From the NCBI RefSeq assembly GCF_030019085.1, contig NZ_JASEFJ010000007.1, positions 1-64,000 of the forward strand: DNA of 64,000 nucleotides. The letters are read 5' to 3'. Numbering within the stretch: position 1 is the first letter of the stretch; each line of letters starts with the position of its first letter. The DNA comes from Methanoculleus sp. (lineage in GTDB: Archaea > Halobacteriota > Methanomicrobia > Methanomicrobiales > Methanoculleaceae). This document shows positions 37,347-41,997 of this stretch, one piece after another. Below the pieces are notes generated by a model. The model was given only the letters and a program-made list of their open reading frames with translations, did no database searches and was not told where the DNA came from. The translations under genes were made by a program, and so were the position numbers.

Positions 37347-38192
37347 TCATGATTTGCCGGCACCTGATAGAAGGGAGCCCAGGGCGCGGGGGAGATCTTC
37401 TTTCGCCGTTACCACGTCTGCGGACTCTTCGAGCATCAGGTTGACCAGTTCGTGGTGCCCGGCAATACGAAAGTCGGTGCGGAGCGCGACGAGAGGTTTG
37501 TCATGGGCATACGCATACCCCATCTCCCAGGATGTACCCGAGTCTGCATCCGCACCGTCGATGACCGCAACGACGAGGTCAGCGTCGCGGAGCGCCGCAA
37601 GATGCCTTGAGAATATCGCCCTGTGCTCGTCCCGGCACCGGGTGTGACTGGTATCCCCCACCTCCTGAGGAAGGTAGACATCAAAGAGGTGTGTCTCGAG
37701 GAGATCGCGGAGCACCAGGTTGTACGCCCGCTCCGCTTCCGAGAAGAGAGGAGCGGCGAGGTAGATGCGGTAGCGTGCAAACTCCTTAACGTCGACTGCC
37801 CGGATATCCGGGAACCTGGCGATAAACGCCCCGCGCCCTGGCTCTTTTTCAGTGGATAGGTAGGTTGTATTGACCCCACAGACGGGTGAGGAGTCCACCC
37901 CCACTATCGCAAGCGGCGACTCCGCGCGTTCCCTGATCGCGCTACGAAGATCTGCCTCAAGCGCATCAAGGAGGGCTGAAAACTCATCGGTTGCGAGCCG
38001 CTCCATGAACGAGCCCGGTTCCCGGTCGGCGCCAAGGTATATCGTCTCAGGACAGGGGAATGGGACCATCTCGATCGAGAAACGTCGGCAGCGCTCTACG
38101 GCACGGCGGAAGGAGTGAATGTCCTCCCCGCTCGTTATTCCGCGGGCACGGCAGGCGGGATCAAGGATACAGGGAGCGAGAAGCACGTACAT
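37347..38192 (-). CDS. Fusion of a DUF523-like domain and a nucleoside 2-deoxyribosyltransferase-like domain
   Basis: 281 residues. Residues 1-120 (LLAPCILDPACRARGI, EMVPFPCPETIYLG, PLAIVGVDSSPVCGVNTTYLS) resemble the Cys-containing DUF523 fold. Residues 135-275 (YRIYLAAPLFSEAERAYNLVLRDLLE...VYLPQEVGD, DADLVVAVIDGADADSGTSWEMGYAYAHDKPLVALRTDFR) are the nucleoside 2-deoxyribosyltransferase fold. The E of SWEMGYAYA is the usual catalytic Glu. Likely acts on nucleosides or nucleotides; specificity unknown. Divergent from tsr3 with a 35-bp gap. Confidence 0.75.
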   Translation of the reverse strand: MYVLLAPCILDPACRARGITSGEDIHSFRRAVERCRRFSIEMVPFPCPETIYLGADREPGSFMERLATDEFSALLDALEADLRSAIRERAESPLAIVGVDSSPVCGVNTTYLSTEKEPGRGAFIARFPDIRAVDVKEFARYRIYLAAPLFSEAERAYNLVLRDLLETHLFDVYLPQEVGDTSHTRCRDEHRAIFSRHLAALRDADLVVAVIDGADADSGTSWEMGYAYAHDKPLVALRTDFRIAGHHELVNLMLEESADVVTAKEDLPRALGSLLSGAGKS

Positions 38193-38227
38193 TGATAGTA
38201 CCTTGGCGGCCTACCATAACAAGAGAG

Positions 38228-38719
38228 ATGATACCGCTCTACATCTACAGGGACAACACATGCGACCCGGGGAAGTGCACGGCAAAGAAACTTGGAAGGC
38301 GCGGACTTGTCCGGATCGTCCCGGCAATCGCAAAGATCCCGCGTTCGACCCTCCTCCTCGACCCTACCGCCGAGAGAGCACTCTCTCCCGCCGACCGTAA
38401 CCTCCCCTCGATAACAGCGCTCGACTGCTCCTGGGAGGTTCTCGATACAGGAGCGGTAGCCTCCTGGCGCAACCGCCGGGCTCTCCCTTTCCTGGTGGCC
38501 GCAAACCCGGTGAATTTCGGCCGACCTTTCCGGTTGACAACGGTGGAGGCGATGGCAGCGGCGCTCTACATCCTGGGGGAGAAGGAGCAGGCAAGGACCA
38601 TACTCGCGCCGTTTGGATGGGGGCTCCGGTTCCTTGAGGTTAACGCCGAACCCCTGGAAGAATACGCCGGGGCAAAGGACAGCGCCGAGGTCATCGCCAT
38701 CCAGGCGCTTTACATGTGA
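38228..38719 (+). CDS. tsr3: rRNA aminocarboxypropyltransferase Tsr3 (DUF367)
   Basis: 163 residues from ATG 38228; the longer frame upstream is antisense shadow. Blocks DNTCDPGKCTAKKLGRRGLV, LLDPTAERALSPADR, ITALDCSWEVL, RALPFLVAANPVNFGRPFRLTTVEAMAAALYILGEKEQA and FGWGLRFLEVNAEPLEEYA match Tsr3. Tsr3 adds the aminocarboxypropyl group to a hypermodified base of small-subunit rRNA. Confidence 0.92.
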   Translation: MIPLYIYRDNTCDPGKCTAKKLGRRGLVRIVPAIAKIPRSTLLLDPTAERALSPADRNLPSITALDCSWEVLDTGAVASWRNRRALPFLVAANPVNFGRPFRLTTVEAMAAALYILGEKEQARTILAPFGWGLRFLEVNAEPLEEYAGAKDSAEVIAIQALYM

Positions 38720-38837: not shown

Positions 38838-38848
38838 TTTTTATATAT
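38838..38848 (+). promoter_or_regulatory. Strong TATA box before the 615-residue protein gene
   Basis: TTTTTATATA 43-53 bp before ATG 38891, with GGAGG ten bases upstream of the ATG. This is among the clearest promoter and RBS arrangements in the window. Confidence 0.55.
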
Positions 38849-38890
38849 TCAACCATGATCTCGCAGTCAGAGATAGGAGGTTACCAGAAG

Positions 38891-40735
38891 ATGAACACCG
38901 AAAGGGAGAGGGTTATCCTGGCTGCAGCCCATGCGGCGACCTACAAACCCGATTACATGACCGTCGACAAACTTGAGGCGGCAACACGAGGACACGGGGC
39001 GCTTGTCATCCCGGCATTTGCCGCGGCGAACTCACTGGCCGAGGATATCTTCTGCAATGTCGGCGCACCCGAGATGCGCCTCATGAACATGACGCTGATC
39101 GATGCTTCGGTCCCCTACCTGCCGCTCGATGCGATCGTCGGGAAAGCGGTGGGCGAGGCGAAGCGGGGCGGGGCAGAACCGGCAAACGCAGCTCTGATTG
39201 TTGCGACGCTTGCCTACTTCTCCGGAAGCTGTGCCCGCGCTGGCGTGCCGCTCGGAAACCGCAAACTCGGCGCCATCGCGCGGATACACGCCGGCGCGGA
39301 CAGGACTAGCGCAATCGCCCTGACAACGAACAAGTTCACCCACCGTGTCCCGGCGTTTCCCGCCTACCTTGCGATCTACCAGGCCCTGATGAAGAAAGAA
39401 CTGACTCACCTTGATGGTGCAGTCCTGCCACCATTCGTCGCCGGTGGAGGTGTCATGGGCCACGCCTCGCTCGGAGAGGACTACAACATACCAGAACTCG
39501 CCAGAAACGCCGCAAAGATAGGGACCGAGGCGATGATGCGGAGCATGGAGGGTGCCGGAACAACGCCATACCCCCTCTGGCCAGCACTGATCGCCGCAGC
39601 AGTAACAATGGAACTCGTCCACCCCGACGCTCTCCTGGGTGAAGAGTTCGGGAAGTTCGGGGAGATTGACTCGGCCTACATGGCCGGGAAGGGGGCAGTC
39701 GAGGCGGCGAAACTCCCCGACAAACTCCATATGCGTGGTACCGGAGAAGAGTATGACACCGCCCGGATCATCGGTGATTTCGGGCTGATCTTAAAAGATG
39801 TCGGTGGCCCCTCGGTGATCGGGTCCATGGTGGTAAACGAGATCTTCGCAGGTTTCCAGGAGTCCGCCATCATCGGGGCTGGATTCTCTGGCGGGCCGGT
39901 GAACGTCCCGCTCGGCCACCTCGCCGGCGACATCCTCCCGGCACTGCGACTGCTCTTCTCGAACGGTGGCGACGTCGAGGCAACCGCGACCGCGATCCGG
40001 GACTACAAGATGCAGTCCTTCATCGACCCAGAACTCGCTCTCTGTGGCTTAAACACGATCGCCCGCAAGGCAGAGGTCGTGAACAGAGGAATGGTAACGG
40101 AGGCCTGCATCCGGGCGAGCGAACCGGTACGCGACCGCGCTGTCTACCGGCGGGCCGTGAAGGTCTACGAGATGCTCAAGGCAGGACGGTCAGTGGAAGA
40201 AGCGGCAAGAACCCTCGATGAGGAGCGCAGGGCTCTCGTTGAAGAGCGAGGTTCCGCAGCCCTCTCCGGGTTCACGGGGAAGGAGATCAGGTTCCGATTC
40301 ACGGAGATCGCACCCCATGCACGGAGAACAGACTCCTTTACTGCAAAATACTGGGGGTTTGACCCGAAGATCTCCTATGACATAACCATCGACGGGAAAG
40401 ATTACCATATCGAGAACCTCACCGCCAGGGTGGTTCCGGAGTATGCGCTCCAGGGGAAAGGCAGGGACGACCCGGATATGGGCACCGCCATCTTTGTTGG
40501 CGCTGTCCTCACGCAGGAACTACAGTATAGCGGCCAAACCATCATCAACATGACCGTACCTGCCGCGGTAGCGGCAGCGCTTGGCACCGATCCGACAGTA
40601 GCGGCAAAGAAGGCGGTAACTGGCGCGCGCCTGACAAACGCAATCCTCGGCGGCCAGAAGGTGGCAGAACAGGTCGCTAAACTTGCGCAGGAGATCTCTA
40701 AGGGCCTCAACGAGCCATCAACTGAAACATCTTGA
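38891..40735 (+). CDS. Large conserved-looking protein of unknown function, coupled to LarC-like gene
   Basis: 614-615 residues from the ATG with good RBS (GGAGG). Soluble, alanine/glycine-rich, with long helices. Distinctive stretches include GALVIPAFAAANSLAEDIFC, YFSGSCARAGVPLGNRKLGAIARIHAGADRTSAIALTTNKFTHRVPAFPAY, VGGPSVIGSMVVNEIFAGF and a C-terminal GKDYHIENLTARVVPEYALQG. Nothing I recognise, and no signal peptide. Single Cys residues recur in SGSCARAG and ALCGLN. It ends 14 bp before the LarC-like gene, so they are probably one operon. Confidence 0.8.
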   Translation: MNTERERVILAAAHAATYKPDYMTVDKLEAATRGHGALVIPAFAAANSLAEDIFCNVGAPEMRLMNMTLIDASVPYLPLDAIVGKAVGEAKRGGAEPANAALIVATLAYFSGSCARAGVPLGNRKLGAIARIHAGADRTSAIALTTNKFTHRVPAFPAYLAIYQALMKKELTHLDGAVLPPFVAGGGVMGHASLGEDYNIPELARNAAKIGTEAMMRSMEGAGTTPYPLWPALIAAAVTMELVHPDALLGEEFGKFGEIDSAYMAGKGAVEAAKLPDKLHMRGTGEEYDTARIIGDFGLILKDVGGPSVIGSMVVNEIFAGFQESAIIGAGFSGGPVNVPLGHLAGDILPALRLLFSNGGDVEATATAIRDYKMQSFIDPELALCGLNTIARKAEVVNRGMVTEACIRASEPVRDRAVYRRAVKVYEMLKAGRSVEEAARTLDEERRALVEERGSAALSGFTGKEIRFRFTEIAPHARRTDSFTAKYWGFDPKISYDITIDGKDYHIENLTARVVPEYALQGKGRDDPDMGTAIFVGAVLTQELQYSGQTIINMTVPAAVAAALGTDPTVAAKKAVTGARLTNAILGGQKVAEQVAKLAQEISKGLNEPSTETS

Positions 40736-40749
40736 GGTGCCGGCGGGGC

Positions 40750-41997
40750 ATGAAAATCCTCGTCATCGACCCTATGGTCGCAGGGGTTGCAGGGTATATG
40801 CTCCCTGCTGCCCTAATCGACCTCCTTGGTGAACCATCGGCTCTCGACCCGCTTGCGGATGTAATCCTGGATCTGGGGCTCTGCCGGGAGTTTGACTACA
40901 GCGCTGAGACTCTGAATATCGGCGGGACCAGAGCAACCAGGCTCATGGTCGAGGTTGAAGGGGGGAGATCAGGAGATCTCCCGGATGCGATGGCCACTGC
41001 CGCCGGTGCAGCAGGCCTCTCATCGACCGCTTACTCCAGGGCCCTCAGTGTCATGGGTGACCTCGGTCGGTCAGGGTATCCACCGGCGGAGACGGTCTTT
41101 TCAGTCGTCGGGACGATGCTCCTCCTCGATAGAGCGGCGTTTCTCGAGGGAACAATCGTCACGACGCCTCCGGTGCTTGGTTGCGGGGTGATCGAAACGG
41201 CATACGGCGAGATCCCGGCGCCGTCACCTGCCACCATCGAGATCCTGGCAAGACACCGTTTCCCCTTCACCACCGCGCCCATCGGGATGGAGATGACAAC
41301 GCCGACGGGGGCGGCGCTGCTCACCGCTCTTGCCGGGCGTGCGATACAACAATACCCGACCATGGTTCCAGTCAGGGTCGGCTACGGCAGCGGCGGCCGT
41401 GAGATTCCCGGACGGCCGGACCTGATCAGGGTTGTAGAGGGAGAGAGTCTCCCCGCCGGGGAGGAACACATGCTCATCCTCGAGACAAACCTCGACGACG
41501 CCTCGGGGGAGGTGATCGGGTATGCGGTCGAGCGCCTCTTCGCAGAAGGGGCGGTGGACGTCTTTATCACCCCGGCGCTCGGGAAGAAAAACCGGCCCGT
41601 CAGTGTCATCTCAGTGATGACAACGGCAGGGGAGGAGGGGAACCTGATCAGGGTTCTAATGGAGGAGACCGGTACTCTGGGGGTGCGGGTGTATGAGTTC
41701 CGGAAGGTTGTGGCCGCCCGTCAGAGGGAGACAATGCCAATCCAGGTCGGGGAGACGGAGCGTTCCATCCGGGTTAAGACCTCGACCATAGACGGTCACC
41801 TGATCGCCGAGAAACCTGAGTACGAAGATCTTGCAGCAATAGCACGGGAAGAGGGGATCCCTCTCCGGTTTGTGGATGAAGAGGTCAGACTGCGCTTATC
41901 GGAACGAAGAAGAAAGGGCTACGACCCCAGAGGGGGTGCAGGGGGTGGATGCCCGCCCGACCACCCGAACGCGGCGAACTCCGCACGCGACGAGTGA
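40750..41997 (+). CDS. LarC-like nickel-pincer cofactor protein (DUF111)
   Basis: 415 residues. The C-terminal two-thirds match LarC: MEMTTPTGAALLTALAG, LILETNLDDASGEVIGYAVERLFAEGAVDVFITPALGKKNRPVSVISVM, GVRVYEFRKVVAARQ, and KPEYEDLAAIAREEGIPL. LarC inserts nickel into the pyridinium dithiocarboxylate cofactor. The N-terminus DPMVAGVAGYMLPAALIDL replaces the usual FSGISGDM, losing the conserved Asp. The C-terminal tail (GGAGGGCPPDHPNAANSARDE) is low complexity. A different metal or substrate is possible. Confidence 0.85.
   Translation: MKILVIDPMVAGVAGYMLPAALIDLLGEPSALDPLADVILDLGLCREFDYSAETLNIGGTRATRLMVEVEGGRSGDLPDAMATAAGAAGLSSTAYSRALSVMGDLGRSGYPPAETVFSVVGTMLLLDRAAFLEGTIVTTPPVLGCGVIETAYGEIPAPSPATIEILARHRFPFTTAPIGMEMTTPTGAALLTALAGRAIQQYPTMVPVRVGYGSGGREIPGRPDLIRVVEGESLPAGEEHMLILETNLDDASGEVIGYAVERLFAEGAVDVFITPALGKKNRPVSVISVMTTAGEEGNLIRVLMEETGTLGVRVYEFRKVVAARQRETMPIQVGETERSIRVKTSTIDGHLIAEKPEYEDLAAIAREEGIPLRFVDEEVRLRLSERRRKGYDPRGGAGGGCPPDHPNAANSARDE

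Follow-up and report, generated by a model that had tools for sequence, protein, structure and literature searches.

Gene pair and its upstream region

The window, i.e. the whole stretch of 64,000 nucleotides analysed here (NZ_JASEFJ010000007.1, positions 1 to 64,000, from Methanoculleus sp.), carries two adjacent genes, designated here as A and B, with the following features:

38838..38847, forward strand: TATA-box-like element (archaeal) of the A–B pair, T-rich TTTTTATATA, its core kept in 11 Methanoculleus-type loci
38876..38881, forward strand: Shine-Dalgarno sequence GGAGGT of gene A, invariant in 11 loci, 9 bp 5' of ATG 38891
38891..40735, forward strand: gene A, 614 aa, from ATG 38891 to the stop codon at 40733-40735
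40750..41997, forward strand: gene B, 415 aa, LarC-like, starting with ATG 40750, its LarC1 half decayed and its LarC2 half retained
40750..41454, forward strand: LarC1-derived half of B, residues 1-235, with AGVAGYM in place of AGIAGDM and the HxHE segment lost
41461..41883, forward strand: LarC2 domain of B (residues 238-378), which the partners of A in other lineages also have

An earlier note on this DNA, made from the sequence alone, had described a 615-residue protein behind a promoter and a ribosome-binding site, 14 bp ahead of a LarC homologue. The large open reading frame is real, its length being 614 rather than 615 residues; the two upstream elements, both conserved in Methanoculleus-type loci, and the intergenic gap of 14 bp were confirmed as described. 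An in-frame ATG at 38855, which would extend A to 626 aa, sits 5' of the conserved Shine-Dalgarno sequence, and the start at ATG 38891 is preferred to it, since this start fits the TATA element and the GGAGGT conserved in the 11 upstream regions. Directly 5' of A lies an open reading frame (38060-38719), which by inspection we take to resemble a Tsr3/DUF367-type protein; its end also precedes A in several Methanoculleus-type loci, and the neighbourhood of A seems to be partly conserved within the genus.

Protein A: sequence, predicted structure and constraint

The profile searches with A returned no family match in either Pfam or NCBIfam, and none of 18 relatives of A gave a credible match in Pfam; specifically, no credible match to the domain Lar_N (PF09861) was obtained for A or its relatives. 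Searching the PDB sequences yielded no match for the single protein and none that was credible for the profile, and nothing was found among phage records. The AlphaFold model, based on an alignment of 50 sequences, is mostly α-helical, with a mean pLDDT of 89.6 and a pTM of 0.90. Compared with PDB folds, it had no match at an E-value of 1e-3 or better, the best probability among the 50 best rows being 0.20 and no LarA being present among these rows; no fold match was obtained among viral models. The earlier note had left the protein unassigned, and the structure prediction proposed there as a check has produced a confident model that is unmatched among the PDB folds. With the maximum 19-residue hydropathy mean of 1.41 and no clear membrane span, A is predicted to be a soluble, mostly α-helical protein.

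Concerning the conserved residues, two histidines (H191 and H343), two lysines (K125 and K148), three arginines (R124, R131 and R138) and five acidic residues (E196, D197, E241, D246 and D303) are invariant across the 50 sequences, with no cysteine among the conserved positions. The top-conserved peptide, GVPxGNRKLG (residues 118-127), forms a low-confidence loop in the model and might behave like an active-site loop that becomes ordered upon ligand binding. The dN/dS of A against three relatives is 0.08-0.10, which means strong purifying selection.

Protein B: decay of LarC1 and retention of LarC2

That B is a LarC homologue with the altered motif MVAGVAGYM, as previously noticed, has been verified: it matches the Pfam family PF01969 (Ni_insertion; E 5e-78), the match beginning only at residue 114, as well as the NCBIfam model of LarC2 (NF052512; 120 bits at a cut-off of 50), its score with the NCBIfam LarC1 model being under the cut-off. 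The structural model of its LarC2 part matches the LarC2 structures 6bwo/6bwq (Foldseek, E 7e-12). An intact LarC1 half, defined by G-x-x-GDM together with HxHE(V/I), was not found in B. Most of the orthologues of B keep a recognisable G-x-x-G motif, many of them as AGIAGDM or AGISGDM and several with HxHE nearby, and the protein from the window adds the change of D to Y; other LarC1 halves have decayed each in a different way (loci L035, L036, L037, L040, L046, L052 and L059).

The whole of B evolves more loosely than A, with the dN/dS of 0.25-0.28 against three relatives. In the comparison with the two closest relatives, the value decreases from 0.35 in the N-terminal part of LarC1 to 0.17-0.18 in the LarC2 part; with L034, residues 1-100 give 0.35 and residues 113-235 give 0.23, and with L039 the gradient is weaker (0.34 to 0.30). 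Judging from the alignments of B to its orthologues and to the standard LarC, the LarC1 half decays repeatedly in Methanomicrobiales, while the LarC2 half is kept. Most of the residues invariant among the orthologues of B are found within LarC2, and this, together with the LarC2-only partners of A in clade II (see below), indicates that LarC2 is the part working with A.

Distribution of A and its linkage to lar genes

In the sample of the phylum Halobacteriota, A is present in 32 of the 295 genomes, and screening species of both Bacteria and Archaea revealed 75 loci with A homologues, although some of the bins may be mislabelled, e.g. that of L045. In the maximum-likelihood tree, rooted by midpoint, clade I contains the sequences from Methanomicrobiales, Archaeoglobi, Thermoproteota and Thorarchaeota, and clade II those from Methanosarcinales, Methanocella, Methanobrevibacter and most of the bacteria, two divergent bacterial sequences falling outside both clades. 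The bacterial groups bearing A are Synergistota, Chloroflexota, Thermodesulfobacteriota, Bacillota and Actinomycetota. Truncated or broken copies were seen in L100 (Methanoculleus chikugoensis), G208, G254 and L105, suggesting either repeated loss of A within archaea or assembly gaps. It should be pointed out that the A of L045, recorded under Desulfuromonadaceae (UBA6124) and followed downstream by LarC, groups within Methanomicrobiales in the tree, the contig being probably mis-binned or recently transferred.

A gene for LarC or LarC2 adjoins A in 67 of the 75 loci, both archaeal and bacterial, often accompanied by LarB and sometimes by LarE. Four of the remaining eight loci end at a contig edge soon downstream of A (L041, L057, L066 and L102); an adjoining LarC or LarC2 is missing from L042, L053, L069 and L079, two of which (L053 and L079) are from Thermoproteota. 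In Methanomicrobiales and Archaeoglobi, A is partnered by a B-type LarC, in clade II and Thorarchaeota by a LarC2-only protein of approximately 175 residues; in Methanosarcinales the LarC2-only gene is followed by LarB and a full LarC. LarB lies within 22 of the 75 loci and LarE accompanies A in three (L070, L084 and L095). LarA occurs in a single one, L045.

Sporomusa acidovorans exhibits a tandem duplication on the contig NZ_FNAM01000012.1 (L095 and L103), each copy standing beside genes for mandelate-racemase-like and MFS-like proteins; one comprises the full set LarC2-A-LarE-LarB-LarC1, the other LarC2 and a truncated A of 151 aa.

NPN genes at the genome level

Of the enzymes that make the nickel-pincer nucleotide (NPN), the genome of the window encodes LarB (contig C33), LarC and LarE (both on contig C22), i.e. 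all on other contigs, the LarC having the standard motif NGAAGDM. LarB and LarE are thus absent near the pair, as had been reported, and present elsewhere in the genome. No LarA was found there by the profile search; a single weak match to Lar_N was rejected, the protein being by inspection presumably a ferredoxin/DUF362-like one. The earlier note had held that a standard LarC with LarB and LarE elsewhere in the genome, along with a lack of conserved linkage between A and LarC, would refute its proposal; the former has been found, whereas the linkage is conserved.

Each of the 32 genomes with A in the phylum sample gave a LarB match. Of the 27 A genomes outside Methanomicrobiales, 24 have LarB over the cut-off, none being detected in the three others, which are probably fragmentary bins. 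The genome-level co-occurrence of A and LarB (Fisher p 0.02 in the phylum, 0.37 in Synergistota) is weak evidence, since LarB occurs almost throughout the groups sampled (260 of 295 genomes in the phylum, 167 of 188 in Synergistota), and it is therefore the gene clustering that carries the argument. All sampled genomes of Methanomicrobiales possess LarB, with or without A, and many lack both A and a clear LarA; a further user of the nickel-pincer cofactor besides A is therefore likely in this order.

A within one-carbon gene islands

In several lineages A is located among the genes of the one-carbon pathway linked to tetrahydromethanopterin (H4MPT). In L117 (Desulfobacteraceae) the order is LarE-LarB-LarC1-A-LarC2-MtdB-FmdD-FmdB-FmdA-Ftr-FmdC-Mch-RimK-type ligase, with a similar order in L118, L119, L120 and L121 and related clusters (L116 and L118-L123) in Thermodesulfobacteriota, Bacillota, Synergistota and Thermoproteota; A is also found within H4MPT/methanofuran islands of Chloroflexota. 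The related islands carry pterin-biosynthesis genes (RFAP-synthase-like, DHPS-like and GCHY-1/HPPK), the enzyme names beyond Pfam domains being our assignments from pathway knowledge. MtdB lies close to A in nine loci from four phyla (L053, L066, L074, L076, L079, L080, L084, L093 and L099). Any H4MPT pathway gene was counted once per locus, so that the counts are unaffected by one Mch query (MCH|120) being in fact Ftr-like, with Mch adjacent to it.

Mch, the methenyl-H4MPT cyclohydrolase, is encoded in 22 of the 27 A genomes outside Methanomicrobiales. Among the 188 genomes of Synergistota, 13 have A (one as a fragment) and 23 have Mch, 11 being shared, so that Mch accompanies A in 11 of 13 genomes versus 12 of 175 without A (Fisher p 5e-10, a value overstating independence since the genomes are related). 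Clustering and co-occurrence with Mch, Ftr, Fmd and MtdB were observed for A with the exception of divergent members: Mch is absent with the divergent A of L095 (Sporomusa), L096 and L097 and in the Synergistota exceptions G414 and G437. For 40 otherwise unannotated island genes, 25 of 54 families were listed, and these include none of Fae, MetF and Mer, an absence that is suggestive only. A family of approximately 350 residues recurs in the islands containing or accompanying A (L117:16382-17434, L125:2265-3341 and L122:16148-17173); it has no Pfam match, the L117 copy having no NCBIfam match either, and it is possibly a methanofuran or methanopterin biosynthesis gene.

Proposed role of A

Known here from methanogens and numerous further anaerobes, almost always beside a nickel-pincer cofactor gene and in bacteria within complete one-carbon operons, A recommends itself as a candidate for the second type of nickel-pincer cofactor enzyme that is still missing. 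The idea that A uses or builds a cofactor, raised in the earlier note, gains support as a hypothesis from its linkage to LarC or LarC2 in archaea and bacteria alike. Specifically, it is proposed tentatively, at somewhat less than an even chance, that A is an enzyme of a fold other than that of LarA, dependent on NPN or cytidylated NPN, loaded by LarC2 and acting in hydride transfer in H4MPT one-carbon metabolism. The ordinary LarB, LarE and LarC would make the NPN cofactor; a dedicated LarC2—in clade II the small separate protein, in the window the half of B that has been kept—would bind it as a nucleotide conjugate and load it onto A. The hydride transfer would most likely proceed at the level of methylene-H4MPT, next to MtdB, since these operons encode, with MtdB through Fmd, the enzymes for the steps that lead from methylene-H4MPT to CO2. 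What was observed is the family with its constraint and its unmatched predicted fold, the gene linkages, the full set of NPN genes without LarA in the genome of the window and the decay of LarC1, and from these we infer the NPN binding, the loading by LarC2 and the reaction. LarC has been described to cytidylylate the cofactor precursor with CTP (PMC11796402). The broader proposal that A stands for a second class of NPN enzymes without structural relation to the first, devoted to one-carbon hydride transfer on H4MPT and receiving the cofactor from a stand-alone LarC2, is rather doubtful; an F420-independent methylene-H4MPT reductase would be an example of such an enzyme.

Several other roles have to be weighed. 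A might be a factor for maturation, storage or insertion of NPN, passing the nickel-loaded cofactor, for instance, from LarC2 to LarA-type or other enzymes; its position next to cofactor-making genes and the presence of LarA in 23 of the 27 A genomes outside Methanomicrobiales agree with this. Yet the genome of the window has A without LarA, the two A genomes of Methanobrevibacter lack a Lar_N match, A sits in clusters of the one-carbon pathway instead of LarA loci and its many invariant charged residues suggest catalysis, which makes such a factor unlikely.

It is quite unlikely that A and LarC2 together form an enzyme of H4MPT/methanofuran biosynthesis or chemistry, with LarC2—taken to be a CTP-binding domain, as established for 6bwq—serving only as the CTP-binding subunit and NPN playing no part. 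The strong H4MPT linkage would be explained in this way, as would the LarC2-only proteins beside A in most members of clade II and the fact that LarB does not adjoin A in Acetomicrobium and Methanobrevibacter; however, LarB and LarC1 (with LarE in L084 and L095) belong to the same clusters in several phyla, where they would be superfluous for a role limited to CTP.

A 2-hydroxy acid or a sugar acid, i.e. a substrate of the LarA type, could also be converted by A, with the one-carbon neighbours handling a downstream C1 product. This is improbable, since the relevant arrangement, the set of A and lar genes beside the gene for the enolase-superfamily (mandelate racemase-like) protein and the MFS-like gene in the Mch-less genome of Sporomusa (L095), is seen in a divergent member alone and no hydroxy-acid gene recurs beside A elsewhere.

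Finally, the variant nickel-pincer chemistry suggested earlier from the N-terminus of B, with an altered LarC that would provide this organism with a nickel cofactor of another kind, hardly deserves credence: the changed motif AGVAGYM speaks for it, but the alignments of B to its orthologues, many of which retain AGIAGDM, the repeated decay of the LarC1 half, the pairing of A with LarC2 alone in many lineages and the standard LarC, along with LarB and LarE, elsewhere in the genome largely refute it.

Comparison with known systems

The LarA superfamily, defined in Pfam by Lar_N (PF09861), covers lactate racemase and other NPN-dependent racemases and epimerases of hydroxyacids. A resembles it in being linked to the genes for LarB, LarC and LarE in many loci and in having invariant histidine and lysine residues such as would be required in an NPN enzyme; it differs in its mostly α-helical model without any match to Lar_N, to another Pfam family or to a PDB fold, and in its neighbourhood, which is that of the H4MPT one-carbon pathway.

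LarC is the nickel-inserting, CTP-dependent cyclometallase with the C-terminal domain LarC2 (6bwo, 6bwq). B shares with it the LarC2 fold and the invariant residues, and in other lineages the gene beside A codes for LarC2 alone; unlike LarC, the LarC1 half of B lacks the aspartate of GDM and the HxHE segment, and the LarC2-only partners are devoid of any LarC1.

Approximately 15% of the surveyed genomes have been found to possess larBCE but not larA, and an NPN protein other than LarA, with a distinct fold, is expected (PMC11796402). The genome of the window, with LarB, LarC and LarE and without LarA, represents just this situation, and A, widespread, strongly constrained and of an unmatched predicted fold, offers a concrete protein candidate for the expected user. 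What appears new here is the protein family of A and its gene linkage, the novelty being judged against Pfam, NCBIfam and PDB and a literature coverage that is incomplete, so that A may already bear a name; the function given for it here is a proposal. Within the same incomplete coverage, the literature search found no paper joining 'nickel pincer' with 'tetrahydromethanopterin'.

The H4MPT/methanofuran islands of anaerobic bacteria have been described as containing Fmd/Fhc, Ftr, Mch and MtdB (PMC5020050). A is located in such islands in Thermodesulfobacteriota, Bacillota, Chloroflexota, Synergistota and Thermoproteota; in contrast to the islands as described, neither A nor the lar genes belong to the known components of the pathway, and their link to H4MPT, if true, would connect an organometallic cofactor containing nickel with one-carbon chemistry of the methanogen type.
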